Below are positions 5,524 through 16,103 of a stretch of 40,371 bases of DNA, piece after piece. The DNA is from Candidatus Nanopelagicaceae bacterium (GTDB lineage: Bacteria; Actinomycetota; Actinomycetes; Nanopelagicales; Nanopelagicaceae), in NCBI GenBank assembly GCA_018882885.1, contig VERG01000013.1, forward strand, positions 1 to 40,371, in the 5' to 3' direction. Numbering within the stretch: the first letter of the stretch is position 1; every line of letters begins with the position of its first letter. The position numbers and the translations under genes are program-made. The notes beneath the pieces are model-generated. The model searched no databases. It saw nothing but the letters and a program-made list of their open reading frames with translations, and had not been told where the DNA came from.

Positions 5524-7113
5524 CTACTCGGGCGACTTGCCCTGCCTAAGTAGACCATAAGTTAATGCATCTTCTAACGCCATAGCTGAAGCGGCGATAA
5601 CATTTTCATGAACCCCGATAGTGCTCCACTCTCCATTGCCATCACTGGTTTCTACTAAGACTCGAGTTATAGCGCCAGTGCCGAGACGGCCCTCGAGAAT
5701 ACGAACTTTGTAATCCGTTAGCTCTAAATTCTTTAGCTCCGGATAAAGTTTTTCTAGCCCATTACGCAAAGCATTATCTATTGCGTTAACCGGACCGTTG
5801 CCAACTCCTTGCGACTCTATATTTTGACCCTTAGATTGCAGTTTTACTATCGCTCTTGAAGAGACTGATTTATGCGCGTCTTGATCTACCGTTGTTTCCC
5901 AACTTTCCAACTTGAAAAATGTGGGTCGTTTTCCATCTAACTCTTCACGTAAAAGGAGTTCGAAAGAGGCATCAGCAGCTTCGAAGGTATATCCCTTGGC
6001 CTCCATACTTTTTACTCGTTCAACAACACGGGTCACTACTTCTTTTTCCTTACTTAAATCAAAACCTAACTCTTGGGATTTAAGTTCGATCGAAGCCCGT
6101 CCAGCCATTTCGGAGACCAACATCCTCATATCATTTCCAACGCTTTCCGGATCTTCATGCTGATACAAGGCCGGATCAACCTTAATGGCAGAGGCATGAA
6201 GTCCCGCCTTGTGAGCAAACGCGGAAACTCCCACATATGGCTGTCTAGCACTTGGTGAAACGTTGGTTACTTCAGCTACCGCATGAGAGATTCGAAATGC
6301 TTCTTCCAACGTACCAGCGGGAAGTACTTGCTGTTTTTTCTTTAGCTGCAAATTAGCAATTATTGAAACTAGATCAGCGTTACCTGTTCTTTCGCCGTAT
6401 CCATTTAAAGTTCCTTGAACATGGGTAGCGCCAGCAGCTACTGCTGCAAGCGAGTTAGCAATCGCACAGCCCGTATCGTTGTGACAATGAATTCCTAAAC
6501 GAGCGGAGCTTTTTGCTAAGACTTCGTGTACTACATCAGAAAGCTCATCTGGCAACATTCCACCATTAGTGTCACATAAAGCTATTACATCGGCTCCGGC
6601 CTCTGCTGCTACTCGAACTACCTCTAAGGCATATGCAGAGTTAGAACGATAGCCATCAAAGAAATGTTCCGCATCAAGAAAAACTCTCTGCCCACCAGCA
6701 CGCAAAAACTGAATCGAGTCACGAATCATCGCCAGGTTTTCATCTAGATGGGTTTTGAGCGCTAAATCAACATGACGATCATGAGACTTTGCTACCAGAG
6801 TAACAACTGGAGCACCTGAATCTTGCAGCGCGCGAAGCAGCACATCATCTGCCGCTTTAACATTTGGTCTGCGTGTGGCGCCAAAGGCAACAAAGGTGGC
6901 GTTTTTTAACTTCAACTCAGTCTGGGCCAGTTTAAAAAACTCGGTGTCTTTGGGGTTGGCTCCAGGCCAGCCGCCTTCAATAAAACCAACACCTAATTCA
7001 TCGAGATGTCGGGCGATTGTTAGCTTGTCATGAACGGAAAGGTTTAACCCCTCTTGTTGTGCACCATCCCGCAAAGTTGTGTCATAGATATGGAATGAAT
7101 CAGAGATCGTCAT
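5524..7113 (-). CDS. cimA: (R)-citramalate synthase
   Basis: Condenses pyruvate with acetyl-CoA to citramalate, the first step of threonine-independent isoleucine synthesis. It belongs to the LeuA/homocitrate synthase family. DTTLRDGAQQEGLNLSVHDK at the N-terminus and GIHCHNDTGCAIANSLAAV carry metal and substrate ligands of the TIM barrel, and a LeuA-type dimer domain follows from about residue 400. DELGVGFIEGGWPGANPKDTEFF is typical of the CimA type rather than LeuA. I chose ATG 7113, which overlaps the ilvE stop as ATGA and gives 529 aa. An in-frame ATG at 7134 would add seven residues but has no ribosome binding site. Its role is supported by leuB, ilvE and ilvBNC in the same operon. A different 2-oxoacid substrate cannot be excluded from sequence alone. 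Confidence 0.88.
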   Translation of the reverse strand: MTISDSFHIYDTTLRDGAQQEGLNLSVHDKLTIARHLDELGVGFIEGGWPGANPKDTEFFKLAQTELKLKNATFVAFGATRRPNVKAADDVLLRALQDSGAPVVTLVAKSHDRHVDLALKTHLDENLAMIRDSIQFLRAGGQRVFLDAEHFFDGYRSNSAYALEVVRVAAEAGADVIALCDTNGGMLPDELSDVVHEVLAKSSARLGIHCHNDTGCAIANSLAAVAAGATHVQGTLNGYGERTGNADLVSIIANLQLKKKQQVLPAGTLEEAFRISHAVAEVTNVSPSARQPYVGVSAFAHKAGLHASAIKVDPALYQHEDPESVGNDMRMLVSEMAGRASIELKSQELGFDLSKEKEVVTRVVERVKSMEAKGYTFEAADASFELLLREELDGKRPTFFKLESWETTVDQDAHKSVSSRAIVKLQSKGQNIESQGVGNGPVNAIDNALRNGLEKLYPELKNLELTDYKVRILEGRLGTGAITRVLVETSDGNGEWSTIGVHENVIAASAMALEDALTYGLLRQGKSPE

Positions 7114-8198
7114 TTCGAAACTTTCTTCATCCATCCATGTTTGTCAGCGATAGTTCCATGTTGAATCCCAAGCAAGTGATTGCGGATTTCCATGGTGATT
7201 TGGCCCGGGTTTCCATCTCCAGTTACCCAAGTTCCATGGACGCTCTTTGCGGTGCCGACTGGGGCAATTACCGCCGCGGTTCCGCAGGCAAAGATCTCTG
7301 AGATCTCGCCACTTGCAACACCATCACGCCATTCCTCGATTGAGATCATTCCCTCTTCTACTTTGTATCCAAGATCTGAGGCGACAGAGAGAATTGAATC
7401 TCTAGTAATTCCAGGCAAAAGAGTTCCAGTTAATTTAGGGGTGAAGATTGTGGCCGCCTTGCCGCGTCCCTTTACGAAGTAAAGGTTCATGCCACCCATC
7501 TCTTCGACATAGCGGCGCTCTTTTGCATCCAACCAAACAACCTGATCACAGCCTTGTGCGGCAGCTTGTTGTTGGGCAAGTAAAGAGGCCGCGTAGTTAC
7601 CGCCACACTTTGCTTCTCCAGTTCCGCCAAGAGCGGCACGCACATACTCTGTAGAGATCCAAACCGTAACCGCTTTTGCAGCATTGAAGTAAGCGGCTGC
7701 AGGTGTTGCAATTACCGCAAACAATGCTTGATTTGAAGGACGAACTCCCAATCCGACTTCAGTCGCAATCATGAAAGGTCTGATGTACAAGGATTCCCCA
7801 ACTTTTTTAGGAACCCAACCAGAATCAATTTTAACTAGCGCTTCAACCGCGCTGACAAAATCAGCCACCGGTAACTCTGGAAGAGTTATGCGAGCTGCGC
7901 TTTTAGCAAATCTCAAACCATTCGCCTCAGGACGGAACAAAGCGATGGAACCATCAGGTTGTGAGTAAGCCTTCATACCTTCAAATATCTCTTGACCGTA
8001 ATGAAAAACCATTGCGGCTGGATCCAAACTAATCGGTCCATAAGCCAGTACATCTGCATCAGACCAACCGGATCCTTGATTCCATTGCGCGGTAACCATG
8101 TGATCGGTGAAGTACTTACCAAACCCTGGCTCTGCAACTCTTTTTTCCCGCTCTGAAACCGGAACCGGATTGCTAGTTGGAGTGATATTTATCTTCAT
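7110..8198 (-). CDS. ilvE: Branched-chain amino acid aminotransferase
   Basis: PLP enzyme of fold type IV that transaminates the 2-oxo acids to valine, isoleucine and leucine with glutamate. At 362 aa it is the longer actinobacterial/eukaryotic-type BCAT. The PLP lysine is K197 in GTGEAKCGGNYA. Other conserved segments are FHYGQEIFEGMKAY (66-79), SLYIRPFMIATE and EMGGMNLYFV. It is the sixth gene of the ilvB operon. Its start overlaps the leuB stop by one base (TAATG), and its stop overlaps the cimA start. Confidence 0.96.
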   Translation of the reverse strand: MKINITPTSNPVPVSEREKRVAEPGFGKYFTDHMVTAQWNQGSGWSDADVLAYGPISLDPAAMVFHYGQEIFEGMKAYSQPDGSIALFRPEANGLRFAKSAARITLPELPVADFVSAVEALVKIDSGWVPKKVGESLYIRPFMIATEVGLGVRPSNQALFAVIATPAAAYFNAAKAVTVWISTEYVRAALGGTGEAKCGGNYAASLLAQQQAAAQGCDQVVWLDAKERRYVEEMGGMNLYFVKGRGKAATIFTPKLTGTLLPGITRDSILSVASDLGYKVEEGMISIEEWRDGVASGEISEIFACGTAAVIAPVGTAKSVHGTWVTGDGNPGQITMEIRNHLLGIQHGTIADKHGWMKKVSK

Positions 8199-9234
8199 TA
8201 TGCCAACGCCTTTACCATTGCATCGCCGACCTCTTTAGTAGAACGCTTGACGGTACCGCGCTGCAATATGTCCTGCTCCACCGCTTTCTCAACATCTGCT
8301 GCGGCTTTATCCAAACCTAAATGTCGCAGCATCATGGCAACAGACATAACTGTTGCGGTTGGATCTGCGATTCCTTTTCCTGCGATATCTGGAGCTGAAC
8401 CATGGACCGGCTCAAACATCGATGGGAATTTCCCTTCTGGATTGATATTGCCAGAAGCAGCTAATCCAATTCCGCCACAGATTGCCGCTGCGATATCTGT
8501 GAGAATGTCACCAAATAGATTGTCAGTTACCACTACATCAAAGCGCTCCGGATTAGTTACAAAGAACATTGAAGCTGCATCTACGTGAAGATAGTCAGTG
8601 GTCACATCAGGGAACTCTTTTGCCACCTCGTTAAAGGTGCGGGTCCATAAACCTCCAGCACGCACCAAAACATTGTTTTTGTGAACCAGAGTTAATTTCT
8701 TGCGCGGTCTGGCTTGAGCGCGAGCAAAAGCATTGCGGATAACCCGCTCTGCACCTCTTCTGGTATTTAGCGACTCCTCTGTTGCGATCTCACTCGAAGT
8801 GCCTTCAGCTAAAACTCCACCGGCACCGACATAAGGACCTTCAGTTCCTTCTCTGACTACAACAAAATCTATGGGTACTTCTGTGCGCAGTGGGCCGGTG
8901 GTTCCGGGATATAGTCGAGCGGGACGCAAATTGATGTAGTGATCAAATGCGAATCTCAGCTTTAGTAGCAATCCGCGCTCGAGTACTCCACTTGGAACTG
9001 ATGGATCTCCAACTGCTCCAAGCAAAATAACATCAAAACCTTTTAACTCCTCCAAAACCGCATCAGGCAAAGTTTCTCCGGTGCGGTGCCAAAGTCGAGC
9101 ACCGAGATCAAACTCCTTTTTGGTAAAGGACACTCCATATTTAGCAGCAACCGCATCCAGAACCTTTACACCTTCGGCAACAACCTCTGGCCCAATCCCG
9201 TCGCCACCAATTAAAGCTAGTTTGAATTGTTGGC

Positions 9235-9238
<4 letters not shown>
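8198..9238 (-). CDS. leuB: 3-Isopropylmalate dehydrogenase
   Basis: NAD-dependent oxidative decarboxylase of leucine synthesis. Family members can also act on 3-methylmalate in the citramalate route, which fits the nearby cimA. It has 346 aa with GDGIGPEVV at the N-terminus, the arginine-rich substrate segment (about 90-135), YVGAGG, and the metal-site signature [44 protein letters not shown] binds the cofactor. The start overlaps the serA stop as ATGA. No leuA, leuC or leuD is present in the window, so the remaining leucine genes lie elsewhere. Confidence 0.96.
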
Positions 9239-11881
<2,643 letters not shown>

Positions 11882-11895
11882 TTATTTCGTGATAT

Positions 11896-12453
11896 TTAGT
11901 TTTGGTAATCCTCTGTCTGGCTTTGCGACTCTGATGAGGCTAGTCCAGTTTCCTGCAATGTCCGCTCTACCAATGTTGTGTCACTAGTTTCAATAGCGAT
12001 CAACCCGGATTGAACCAACTCTTTTACTCCGAACTTATTTAACTCAGTTAACAAAGTTGCCAGATCTTTGCTGGTACCAACCGCTTCAATAACTAACGAG
12101 TTACTGCTTTCCTCAACAATTTGGCCGTTATATTTCTTGACCAAAGACTCAATCTCGCCACGAGAAGTTGAGTTGCTGACTTTGACCATCAGAAGTTCGC
12201 GTTGCCTTGAGTTGGTGCTGGTCATTTCTTGAATACCAATGACATTAACTAGTTTGAATAGCTGGGCGCTGACTTGATCAAGTGCGTGGCCTTCAAGATT
12301 CAAAACAATAGTCATGCGAGAAACCTCAGGGTTCTCAGTTGGTCCTACCGCGAGAGAATCGATGTTGTAACCGCGTCGCGAAAAAAGTGATGCTACTCGA
12401 GCCAATACGCCAGGACTATTTTCAACTAATACAGAAAGAGTGTGCTGGGCCAT
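11896..12453 (-). CDS. ilvN: Acetolactate synthase small (regulatory) subunit
   Basis: Regulatory partner of IlvB; the family confers valine feedback inhibition. It has 185 aa. An ACT domain covers about residues 4-75 (LSVLVENSPGVLARVASLFS, then RRGYNIDSLAVGPTENPEVSR), and the C-terminal ALS small-subunit domain includes RELLMVKVSN and the SLVIEAVGTSKDL region. A Ser/Gln/Glu-rich tail ends the protein. It begins 2 nt after the ilvB stop. Confidence 0.96.
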   Translation of the reverse strand: MAQHTLSVLVENSPGVLARVASLFSRRGYNIDSLAVGPTENPEVSRMTIVLNLEGHALDQVSAQLFKLVNVIGIQEMTSTNSRQRELLMVKVSNSTSRGEIESLVKKYNGQIVEESSNSLVIEAVGTSKDLATLLTELNKFGVKELVQSGLIAIETSDTTLVERTLQETGLASSESQSQTEDYQN

Positions 12454-12455
12454 GG

Positions 12456-14195
12456 TTATAACTCCTGTGAATCCCAGTCCGGCGCCATTTCTTTGGCGAT
12501 CATGATGTCATCATTTGAAGTTCCGGCGGCAACCATCGGCCATACCATTGCATCACGATGTACATTGAAATCAACAACTACTGGAGCGTCATTGATGGCG
12601 TTAGCTTCTTTGATGATCTTGTCTACATCAGATTTGCTGTCACAACGCAGACCAACACAACCCATAGCTTCTGCCAACTTGGCGAAATCTGGAATACGTT
12701 TTGAGTGTAAATCAGTGTTTGAGTAGCGCTGTTGATAAAACAGAGATTGCCATTGACGTACCATTCCCAAACTCTCATTATTAATAATCGCTACTTTGAT
12801 TGGGATGTTATTGAGCGAACAAGTAACCAACTCTTGATTGGTCATCTGGAAACAACCATCTCCATCGATCGCCCATACCGGCGTATCTGGCGCACCAACC
12901 TTTGCACCCATAGCGGCCGGAACCGCATAACCCATGGTTCCTAATCCACCAGAGTTCAACCAGGTACGCGGTTTTTCATACTTAACAAACTGCGATGCCC
13001 ACATCTGATGTTGACCAACACCAGCTACATAAATTCCATCAGGACCTGTAATTGCTCCAATTCTTTCAATTACATACTGCGGAGAAAGTGATCCATCTAC
13101 CGGCTCGTTGTAACCCAATGGGTACTTCTCGCGTAGTGAACCCATCTGACGCCACCAAGTAGTTAGGTCTGGTTTATTTTTCTTGAACTCGGCTTCTACT
13201 GCCGGAATCAGCGCTCGAATGGTTGGACCTAAATCGCCAATGATCGGAACATCGGCATAGCGATTCTTTCCAATCTCAGCGGGATCAATATCGGCATGAA
13301 TAATCTTGGCATTAACAGCGAATGTTGAGAGCTTTCCAGTTACTCGATCATCAAAACGAGCACCTAAAGTGATTAACAAATCTGCTTTTTGCAGCGCAGT
13401 AACCGCCGCTACGGTGCCATGCATGCCAGGCATTCCAAGGTGCTGGTGATGGCTGTCAGGGAAAGCGCCGCGAGCCATAAGTGTGGTCACCACAGGCGCG
13501 CCAACTAGCTCTGCAAATTTAAATAAATCCTTTGCAGCATTAGCCTTAATTACGCCGCCACCAATGTAGAAAACTGGTTTTACAGATTGCGCTATCAGTG
13601 CCGCTGCATCTCTGATTGATTGTGCATTTGGTTCTGTTTGCGGTTTGTACCCGCGAAGATTTATAGAGCTTGGATAGTTGTAATCCGTCATTTTTTGCAG
13701 AGCATCTTTGGCGATATCCACCAAAACTGGACCAGGCCGTCCGGTGTTTGCAATATAGAAAGCTTCAGCGATTGCTTTCGGAATATCTGCTGGATCGGTC
13801 ACCAAATAATTGTGTTTTGTAATTGGCATAGTTACGCCACGGATGTCTGCTTCTTGGAAAGCATCAGTACCAATTGCCGGCGCTGGTACCTGCCCAGTGA
13901 TTGCTACGACTGGAACAGAGTCCATCTGCGCATCAGCAAGTGGGGTAACTAAATTGGTCGCCCCGGGGCCTGATGTTGCAATGCAAACTCCAACTCGCCC
14001 AGTTACCTGCGCATAACCTGTGGCCGCGTGCCCTGCACCTTGTTCATGTCGCACCAAAATATGGCGGATCTTTGAATCATAAATTGGGTCGTAAGCAGGA
14101 AGGATTGCACCGCCAGGAATACCGAACATGACATCAACGCCAGCTTGCTCTAAGGCGTTGACGAGAGATTGTGCTCCCGTAATCTGATTGCTCAT
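12456..14195 (-). CDS. ilvB: Acetolactate synthase large (catalytic) subunit
   Basis: ThDP/FAD enzyme that joins two pyruvates, or pyruvate and 2-ketobutyrate, to start valine or isoleucine synthesis. It has 579 aa. The catalytic glutamate is E51 in [15 protein letters not shown]. The central FAD-binding domain (about 190-340) is followed by the ThDP domain with the [12 protein letters not shown] signature near residue 440. The start ATG 14195 follows a very strong ribosome binding site (AGGAAGGAG). It is the first structural gene of the operon, 41 nt downstream of an intrinsic terminator that is part of a leader-peptide attenuator. Confidence 0.97.
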
Positions 14196-14235
14196 GTTCT
14201 ACTCCTTCCTATACTTAAATTTATTCCGCTCCAAT

Positions 14236-14264
14236 AATGCAAAAACCCTCAGTTTCCTGAGGGT
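14236..14264 (-). terminator. Intrinsic terminator of the ilv attenuator
   Basis: On the minus strand an 8-bp perfect stem, ACCCTCAG with CTGAGGGT (14264-14257 and 14252-14245), closes a GAAA tetraloop and is followed at once by a run of five U (14245-14241). This is a textbook rho-independent terminator. It lies between the promoter at 14356-14384 and ilvB, so it would stop ilvBNC transcription unless suppressed. It also serves any read-through transcript from ilvD. Confidence 0.85.
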
Positions 14265-14294
14265 GCGCGTGAACTTGAAGCTAGTTCACGCGCA
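14264..14294 (-). promoter_or_regulatory. Long leader hairpin directly upstream of the ilv terminator
   Basis: A perfect 11-bp inverted repeat (GCGCGTGAACT on the plus strand at 14265-14275, its complement at 14283-14293) extends to 12 bp with T14264-A14294. The loop has 7 nt. The arm nearest the leader peptide contains its stop codon (14286-14288), so a ribosome finishing the peptide would melt this hairpin. It touches the first base of the terminator stem. It is probably the translation-sensitive element of the attenuator, but I could not identify a clean competing antiterminator pairing. Confidence 0.65.
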
Positions 14295-14348
14295 GCGAAT
14301 CACCACCACTGAAACAATGATTGAGACAGATGATGTGTTCGCTGACAT
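14286..14348 (-). CDS. Branched-chain leader peptide (20 aa, Val/Ile rich)
   Basis: ATG 14348 to TGA 14286 encodes a 20-residue peptide with eight branched-chain residues: V8, I10, I11, V12, V14, V15, V16 and I17, including three consecutive GTG codons followed by ATT at 14309-14298. This is the classic composition of an ilv attenuation leader peptide. It is immediately followed by a long hairpin and an intrinsic terminator ahead of ilvB. There is no ribosome binding site; the promoter -10 ends 7 nt before the ATG, so the mRNA is predicted to start at or next to the ATG and be read as leaderless, which is common in actinobacteria. No leucine codon is present, suggesting that it senses valine and isoleucine only. 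Confidence 0.82.
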   Translation of the reverse strand: MSANTSSVSIIVSVVVIRCA

Positions 14349-14355
14349 GAAGAGA

Positions 14356-14384
14356 ATTATCCCGTCACAAAAAGTATGAGTCAA
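14356..14384 (-). promoter_or_regulatory. Promoter of the ilvBNC-serA-leuB-ilvE-cimA operon
   Basis: On the minus strand TTGACT (14384-14379) and GATAAT (14361-14356) are separated by 17 nt, each with five of six consensus matches for the housekeeping sigma factor. Start of transcription 7-8 nt after the -10 falls on or beside ATG 14348 of the leader peptide. The promoter lies just after the ilvD stop codon. Confidence 0.75.
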
Positions 14385-14426
14385 CCCCTGAGACGCCTAT
14401 CTCACATTTTGAACGTGAAATCCGGC

Positions 14427-16103
14427 CTAGTCGCAGACCGCGCCTTTTGAGGCTGAACCAACCAACTTCGAGTATTTTCCAAGAACCCCCGAGGTATAGC
14501 GCGGAGGTAGTGGGCGGAACTCTGAGCGACGTTTGGCGAGTTCTTTTTCATCTATCAAAAGATCCAAAGTACGCAGCTTCGTATCGATTCGAATTCGATC
14601 CCCATCCTTTACCAAGGCAATTGGTCCACCATCAACCGCTTCTGGTGCAACATGGCCAACACAAAGACCTGTTGTGCCACCAGAGAAACGACCATCAGTT
14701 AGAAGCAAAACAGATTTTCCAAGTCCGGCACCCTTAATTGCACCAGTAATCATCAACATCTCGCGCATACCAGGACCACCTTTTGGTCCCTCGTAACGAA
14801 TGACAACAACATCGCCGGCCTTGATAGTTCCATCTTCAAGCGCCTGCATCGCAGATTGTTCTCTATCAAAAACTCTAGCCGGACCTTCAAATACATCAAC
14901 ACCAACACCAGCAACTTTGGTGACCGCTCCCTCGGGAGCCAAACTGCCGCCCAAAATTGTTATGCCACCAGTTGTTGCCATCGGATTGCTGGTAGCTTTC
15001 AAAATATCGCCATCAGGATCTGGAGGATTTACATCAGCAAGATTCTCCGCCATTGTCTTTCCGGTTACAGTCAAGCAATCTCCGTGCAGTAACCCTGCAT
15101 CCAACAACGCTTTTAGAACTACCGGGATTCCGCCGACCTTGTCTACATCACTCATTACAAATCGACCGAATGGTTTTAGATCACCAAGCAAAGGAACCTT
15201 TGAACCGATCCGATGGAAATCATTAAGAGTTAAATCAACCTTTGCTTCATGTGCGATAGCGAGAAGATGTAGAACCGCATTGGTAGAACCACCTAAAGCC
15301 ATCAGAGATGTAATCGCATTTTCAAAAGCGGGTTTAGTAAGAATTTGTCGGGTCGTAATCCCTTGGCGAATAAGTTCTACAACCGCTGCACCAGATTTAA
15401 TTGCATAAGTATCTCGGCGGCGATCCACTGCCGGAGGCGCTGCTGAACCCGGCAGCGATAATCCGATTGCTTCACCGATAGTCGCCATGGTGTTTGCGGT
15501 GTACATGCCACCACATGCACCCTCTCCCGGACAGATCGCCCTTTCAATTTTGTCGACCTCTTCACGGGTTATTAAGCCGCGAGCACATGCGCCAACAGCT
15601 TCAAAAGCATCGATGATGGTTACATCTTTTCCATCGACCTGACCTGGCAATGTGGAACCGGCATAAACAAAAACGCTGGCAACATCAAGGCGGGCAGCTG
15701 CCATCATCATTCCAGGTAGTGATTTATCGCAGCCGGCAAATGTGACCATGCCATCAAGTCTCTCGGCTTGCATAACGGTTTCTACTGAGTCGGCGATTAC
15801 TTCACGTGAAACTAGAGAGAAATGCATTCCTTCATGTCCCATTGAAATTCCATCGGAGACTGAGATAGTTCCAAACTGCATGGGAAATCCGCCGGCATCG
15901 ATTACGCCTTGCTTTGAAGCTTTGGCTAATCGGTCGAGGGAGAGATTGCATGGAGTAATTTCATTCCAAGATGATGCGATGCCGATCTGCGGCTTAGCAA
16001 AATCCTCATCCTTCATGCCGACCGCGCGCAACATGCCACGAGCTGGAGCCCGCTCTAAACCATCTGTTACATCTTTAGAACGTGGTTTCATGTTGTCGGT
16101 CAT
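14427..16103 (-). CDS. ilvD: Dihydroxy-acid dehydratase
   Basis: Iron-sulfur enzyme that dehydrates the dihydroxy acids in valine and isoleucine synthesis. At 558 aa it is normal length. Cysteines C52 (EITPCNLSL), C125 ([11 protein letters not shown]) and C197 ([14 protein letters not shown]) match the cluster ligand positions of the IlvD family. The C-terminal half contains [12 protein letters not shown] and [18 protein letters not shown]. It lies 13 nt downstream of gatB but upstream of the ilv promoter, so it belongs to the proB-proA-gatCAB transcript rather than to the attenuated operon. Confidence 0.96.

Follow-up and report, generated by a model that had tools for sequence, protein, structure and literature searches.

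The leader preceding ilvB in the window (the whole 40,371-nt stretch of DNA that was analysed) is very probably, taken as a whole, the ilvL attenuator of actinobacteria. Leaderless ilvL attenuators are already known from Corynebacterium glutamicum, Streptomyces lividans and Mycobacterium tuberculosis, so the kind is not new. The leader works like an attenuator, and it lacks the shared strand and the ribosome binding site of the classical type as well as the three-base overlap of C. glutamicum. A sequence-only reading of this DNA had proposed a complete leader-peptide attenuator and had held such attenuators in streamlined actinobacteria to be little described. The term 'streamlined actinobacterium' is fair, given a genome size of 1.29 Mb and relatives among Nanopelagicales and Nanopelagicaceae: the genus relatives include L074, recorded as Candidatus Nanopelagicales bacterium, whose IlvB is 90% identical, and some records among the family members bear the name Nanopelagicaceae. 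The literature search found no paper on such attenuators in Nanopelagicales, which agrees with the remark on novelty, whereas for actinobacteria at large ilvB attenuators are well documented. The parts of the leader, in the order of transcription, are as follows.

14389-14404, minus strand: inverted repeat TGAGATAGGCGTCTCA, overlapped by TTCAAAATGTGAGA, probable IclR-type operator
14379-14384, minus strand: -35 box TTGACT
14356-14361, minus strand: -10 box GATAAT, 7 nt upstream of the ATG of the leader ORF
14286-14348, minus strand: leader ORF ilvL, probably leaderless, encoding MSANTSSVSIIVSVVVIRCA, with stop codon
14294-14343, minus strand: P1 helix, AGCGAACAC (14335-14343) with GTGATTCGCT (14294-14303)
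14265-14293, minus strand: P2 hairpin of 11 bp, GCGCGTGAACT/AGTTCACGCGC
14245-14264, minus strand: intrinsic terminator ACCCTCAG-GAAA-CTGAGGGT, directly adjoining P2
about 14241-14245, minus strand: U-run of the terminator, whose first U and the first A of the stem may form a further pair

The promoter, the 20-codon ORF, the hairpin of 11-12 bp and the terminator were thus confirmed on the minus strand where the sequence-only reading had placed them, and its five Val codons, three Ile codons, three GTG in a row and GAAA loop were counted correctly. The probable leaderless start, the P1 helix and the upstream operator had been missed. The two promoter boxes are separated by a spacer of 17 nt, and TTGACT-17-GATAAT was the sole promoter-like match with 10/12 within 13.5 kb. 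The ORF ilvL consists of 20 codons and a TGA stop codon and lies directly upstream of ilvBNC. Val codons (n = 5) occupy positions 8, 12, 14, 15 and 16 and Ile codons (n = 3) positions 10, 11 and 17, so that 8 of the 20 codons are Val or Ile, and codons 14-17 read GTG GTG GTG ATT. By promoter spacing the 5' leader of ilvL measures about 0-2 nt, and the ORF is without a ribosome binding site of its own. The distance from TTGAC to the start codon is 36 nt in the window's leader, and an in-frame start codon was found 35-37 nt past TTGAC in 83 of 104 leaders of the class-wide set. This spacing suggests that ilvL, in the window as well, is probably translated without a leader.

The 112-nt leader RNA was calculated to fold at -50.4 kcal/mol, compared with -27.9 +/- 3.2 kcal/mol for dinucleotide shuffles (z = -7.1), and none of 200 shuffles was as stable. 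In P1 the beginning of ilvL is paired with its Val/Ile codons, while the 5' arm of P2 contains the end of ilvL and its stop codon. P2 reaches 12 bp when a flanking T-A pair is counted. It shares no base with the terminator, or one base if that pair is included, and the two fold together; the terminator and its U-run stand upstream of ilvB. The fold far below the shuffles, together with the recurrence of the parts in the genus relatives, argues that the leader is not a product of chance.

The comparison of leaders among relatives, which had been suggested as a check together with covariation of the stems, supported the reading. The ilvB gene was found in 57 of 60 relatives. All genus relatives with an inspected upstream region had kept the ORF end ..SVV(V)IRCA*, P2 and the terminator, while the first part of ilvL varied in length within the genus (16, 19 or 20 codons). 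P1 was also found, in a comparison limited to the genus. Among 19 distinct genus leaders, one pair of P1 was exchanged on both sides from G-C to A-U in seven, and one pair of P2 changed from A-U to U-A or U-G likewise in seven. Overall, 96.2% of cells paired in these 19 leaders, against 27-47% in controls with slid partners. Because the sequences are close, this covariation is thin (two pairs), so it is supportive rather than strong.

For the class, ilvB upstream regions were taken from 24 further genomes and from 80 named loci. P2 and the terminator were called automatically in 109 of 134 ilvB upstream regions; several of the regions missed by the search were incomplete, and nearly all others showed the same plan by eye, as with L015, a locus missed by the automatic finder whose leader was seen on separate reading. 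The plan is common to Nocardioides, Blastococcus, Kribbella, Jiangella, Streptomyces, Cellulomonas, Micromonosporaceae and others. Conservation of the parts in the genus and in Nanopelagicaceae, and recurrence of the plan across many families of the class, indicate that the leader is real and selected. In the MAFFT alignment A1 the terminator arms of leaders with three C and with four C are out of register. Some variants were observed along the way. In four family leaders (L085, L091, L093 and L098) P2 begins with the stop codon, TAG, and GCCC forms the start of the terminator. In the Micromonosporaceae leaders L114, L117, L130, L131, L142 and L144, P2 has the form GCGCACTC..GAGTGCGC, and the terminator has a GGCCCC or AGGTCCC foot, likewise without a spacer. 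Four metagenome bins titled Bifidobacterium breve (L094, L100, L102 and L105) carry ilvB genes and leaders resembling those of Nanopelagicales or related freshwater actinobacteria, and their titles are probably wrong.

The placement of the codons relative to P2 points to a ribosome that would decide whether P2 forms. In the class leaders, Val, Ile and Leu codons cluster 7-17 nt upstream of P2, and in most leaders the stop codon falls within -5 to +13 nt of the P2 start. With a distance of 11-15 nt assumed from the A site to the ribosome front, a ribosome with codon 14 or 15 of the window's ilvL in the A site would leave 8-11 of the 11 P2 pairs free, one stalled at codon 16 would leave 5-9, and one at the stop codon none; it is this dependence on the codon that would put P2 formation under control of the ribosome. 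The proposed sequence of events is as follows. Transcription would start at or beside the ATG of ilvL, and ribosomes would read the ORF leaderless. With ample Val and Ile, the ribosome would reach the stop codon in the 5' arm of P2 and keep P2 open, the terminator would form, and transcription would stop near 14240. If charged tRNA-Val (or tRNA-Ile) runs short, the ribosome would stall on the Val/Ile codons, P2 would be free to form, and RNA polymerase would pass into ilvBNC-serA-leuB-ilvE-cimA. P1 would probably keep RNA that is not translated in the OFF form. Ribosome-mediated attenuation of ilvBNC, as the sequence-only reading had proposed, is strongly supported by the class-wide conservation and by work on orthologous leaders (PMC11857589, PMC13236596; the leaderless IlvL of PMC8079986), and we infer that in the window's organism, too, stalling regulates and charged tRNA is sensed. 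Nanopelagicaceae, which are streamlined and largely uncultured, would thereby join the bacteria that control branched-chain amino acid synthesis via ribosome stalling.

The leader is followed on the same strand by the Shine-Dalgarno sequence of ilvB and by seven genes.

14202-14209, minus strand: Shine-Dalgarno sequence of ilvB, GGAAGGAG
12456-14195, minus strand: ilvB, acetolactate synthase large subunit (NCBIfam NF005860, 1066.8 bits, cut-off 881)
11896-12453, minus strand: ilvN, acetolactate synthase small subunit (NCBIfam NF008864)
10820-11854, minus strand: ilvC, ketol-acid reductoisomerase (NCBIfam NF004017)
9235-10854, minus strand: serA, phosphoglycerate dehydrogenase (NCBIfam TIGR01327)
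8198-9238, minus strand: leuB, 3-isopropylmalate dehydrogenase (NCBIfam NF002898)
7110-8198, minus strand: ilvE, branched-chain aminotransferase (NCBIfam NF009897)
5524-7134, minus strand: cimA, citramalate synthase (NCBIfam TIGR00977)

All seven genes scored above an NCBIfam cut-off in the profile search. They run in the same direction with intergenic gaps of at most 41 nt or with overlaps, and since the gene coordinates run from the first start codon, the exact overlaps (e.g. serA/ilvC and cimA/ilvE) are uncertain. A search for strong minus-strand terminators inside the run from ilvB to cimA found none. We infer that ilvBNC-serA-leuB-ilvE-cimA is one transcript, and control by ribosome stalling possibly extends to serA and cimA. 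The minus-strand leader is flanked by ilvD (14427-16103) and ilvB. No terminator was seen between ilvD and the leader (14405-14427). On transcripts that read through from ilvD, ilvL would not begin at a free 5' end, and attenuation might therefore differ.

In one respect the earlier claim of a 'complete' attenuator finds no support: an antiterminator that excludes the terminator was not found, and the hairpin adjoins the terminator rather than competing with it for bases. A strand-exchange antiterminator was sought by equilibrium folding with nearest-neighbour energies in 104 leaders and was not found. When the 3' foot of the terminator was forced open, the gain by its 5' foot averaged -1.07 kcal/mol, against -1.14 kcal/mol with swapped upstream sequences. 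Opening the terminator bottom cost a median of 9.7 kcal/mol, of which pairing elsewhere regained nothing. P2 and the terminator being compatible, and opening being costly without gain, base pairing yields no ON state. Some family leaders (e.g. L022 and L024) open more cheaply, so that this statement covers the set and the window rather than each leader. Two candidate pairings were rejected: an extension of P2 by GGU/ACC with the terminator foot, which is complementary on paper in several leaders and brings no energetic gain, and a his-type D:E pairing of the P2 3' arm with the terminator, for which the strands are not complementary by eye.

What is constant is the junction. The spacer between P2 and the terminator was 0 nt in 58 and 1 nt in 25 of 98 distinct leaders (0-1 nt in 85%), although the lengths vary, with P2 spanning 23-70 nt and the terminator 16-43 nt. 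A spacer of 0-1 nt also appears in about 35% of shuffled sequences, because folds are drawn to their ends, and the linker statistic is in this part an artefact of calling. A stable P2 at 0-1 nt from the terminator was present in 84% of leaders, compared with 20% of shuffles. Terminator hairpins have been reported to form while still inside the RNA exit channel (PMC10907184). A stiff helix such as P2, adjoining the terminator without a spacer, might keep the lowest terminator pairs from closing there. Such abutment, with P2 blocking these pairs, is our leading guess for the ON state, although we would give it somewhat less than an even chance. The wider proposal, that throughout Actinomycetes a complete hairpin with no strand in common with the terminator serves as the ilvB antiterminator, overrides the terminator by spacerless abutment since the exit channel would not have room for both helices, and is switched by the ribosome, is more doubtful and is put forward tentatively. 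Within the literature searched, no description of an antiterminator acting by spacerless abutment was found. The adjoining, non-overlapping hairpin, being class-wide, makes a point that is unclear for actinobacterial ilvB testable by spacer length, and it may bear on the conflicting results of codon replacement in Streptomyces.

Another explanation is strand exchange as in C. glutamicum, in which P2 or an extended P2 would take bases of the terminator, perhaps only kinetically during transcription. In that species the boundary GCC belongs to both H2 and H3, and mutating it has an effect (PMC11857589). The window offers something comparable: the GGU(G) of the GTG codons is complementary to the (C)ACC at the terminator foot, and the flanking T-A pair of P2 would take one base from the terminator. 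However, P2 extension in the window amounted to 0.0 kcal/mol when the foot was forced open, the 104 leaders showed no gain over the swapped controls, and the GGU would be covered by a ribosome stalled on the GTG run. We therefore consider strand exchange unlikely.

Abutting hairpins could also act in the opposite way to the one that we favour. Adjacent helices usually stack and stabilise one another, and stacking of P2 on the terminator could aid termination; P2 would then be a pause or synchronising hairpin, and the ON state would come about by means that the sequence does not show, e.g. by contact between ribosome and polymerase. Helices in the exit channel can indeed stabilise pauses, as described for a riboswitch helix (PMC11087558). 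On this account, however, a stalled ribosome would promote termination, whereas starvation has the contrary effect in C. glutamicum (PMC11857589) and M. tuberculosis (PMC13236596), and the explanation seems improbable to us.

Control mainly at the promoter, by an IclR regulator of the NdgR/LtbR group, with the leader setting a basal level and the codons not acting as sensors, was judged to be about as improbable. Conserved inverted repeats stand directly before the -35 box. In the window the repeat at 14389-14404 sits four bases upstream of the -35 box, within a site region of 14385-14415. In 35 of 84 leaders, most of them from the window's family, the pattern GAGAYnnnnRTCTC ends 5-6 nt upstream of TTGAC, and in other families the operator-like pattern is closer to TCAnnATnnTGAGAC. 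An IclR-family gene (L154, G000:C35 around 24832, an open frame of 240 aa) is divergent from leuC in the window's genome, and a similar site, TCTCACATGATGAGA, lies between the two, an arrangement that looks NdgR/LtbR-like. The repeat before the -35 box is thus a probable operator of an IclR-type (NdgR/LtbR-like) regulator. Six further matches to it in the genome lie elsewhere, mostly inside genes. The IclR regulator NdgR of S. coelicolor binds at ilvB and leuC (PMC4340878). An equation of the repeat with the S. coelicolor NdgR site was rejected: the ChIP-seq motif (PMC4340878) differs, and the claim is therefore limited to likeness with the IclR-leuC intergenic site. Promoter control would also agree with the finding, as quoted in PMC1262725, that replacing the presumed control codons of the S. 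coelicolor ilvB leader left regulation unaffected. However, it leaves the class-wide codon placement, the stop codon in P2 and the terminator unexplained, and it can coexist with an attenuator. As judged from the DNA, dual control by a promoter regulator and the attenuator is likely.

A riboswitch or a protein-bound leader in place of a translated one is hardly credible: the Rfam search at gathering and relaxed thresholds gave chance-level matches only, with no family at its gathering threshold and a weak SAM/SAH riboswitch match far below it (15 bits against a gathering value of 40, E 0.41), a conserved unpaired core was not seen, and what is conserved lies in the codons, helices and terminator.

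Classical enterobacterial trp, his and ilv attenuators have their own ribosome binding site, and one strand of their terminator also takes part in the antiterminator. The window's leader resembles them in having an ORF with control codons, followed by an intrinsic terminator and a biosynthetic operon, and differs from the trp/his type in that it is without a shared-strand antiterminator (by equilibrium folding) and without a ribosome binding site for the ORF. Closer likenesses are found among actinobacteria. The ilvB1NC leader of M. tuberculosis (PMC13236596) likewise has a uORF rich in branched-chain amino acid codons (LVVI), a short terminated RNA and a codon-dependent response; changing LVVI to Ala in the ilvB1 leader resulted in low, unresponsive expression. 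That leader differs in having been published with a mutually exclusive terminator and antiterminator. The ilvB (ilvBHC) leader of S. lividans and S. coelicolor (PMC8079986, PMC1262725) shares the leaderless ORF, the codons just before P2, the stop codon in P2 and the adjoining terminator. In S. lividans the leaderless IlvL MRTRILVLGKRVG is known from transcriptome data (PMC8079986), and the same peptide also occurs in locus L048. The Streptomyces leader has fewer control codons, and their replacement in S. coelicolor was reportedly ineffective, as noted above from the quotation.

The ilvBNC attenuator of C. glutamicum, in which the ORF of IlvL (MTIIRLVVVTARRLP) starts one base from the transcription start, has been described by a three-hairpin model (PMC11857589), and an ilvB-II motif has been reported for Corynebacterium (PMC10272879). 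Replacement of Val by Ala abolished the valine response there, and weakening of the terminator changed the regulation (PMC11857589). The two leaders share a leaderless Val/Ile-rich ORF before ilvBNC, a terminator with a U-run, a hairpin over the ORF (H1, like P1) and a second one like P2 (H2). They differ at the junction: H2 and the terminator of C. glutamicum overlap by three bases (PMC11857589), whereas P2 and the terminator of the window share none or one.
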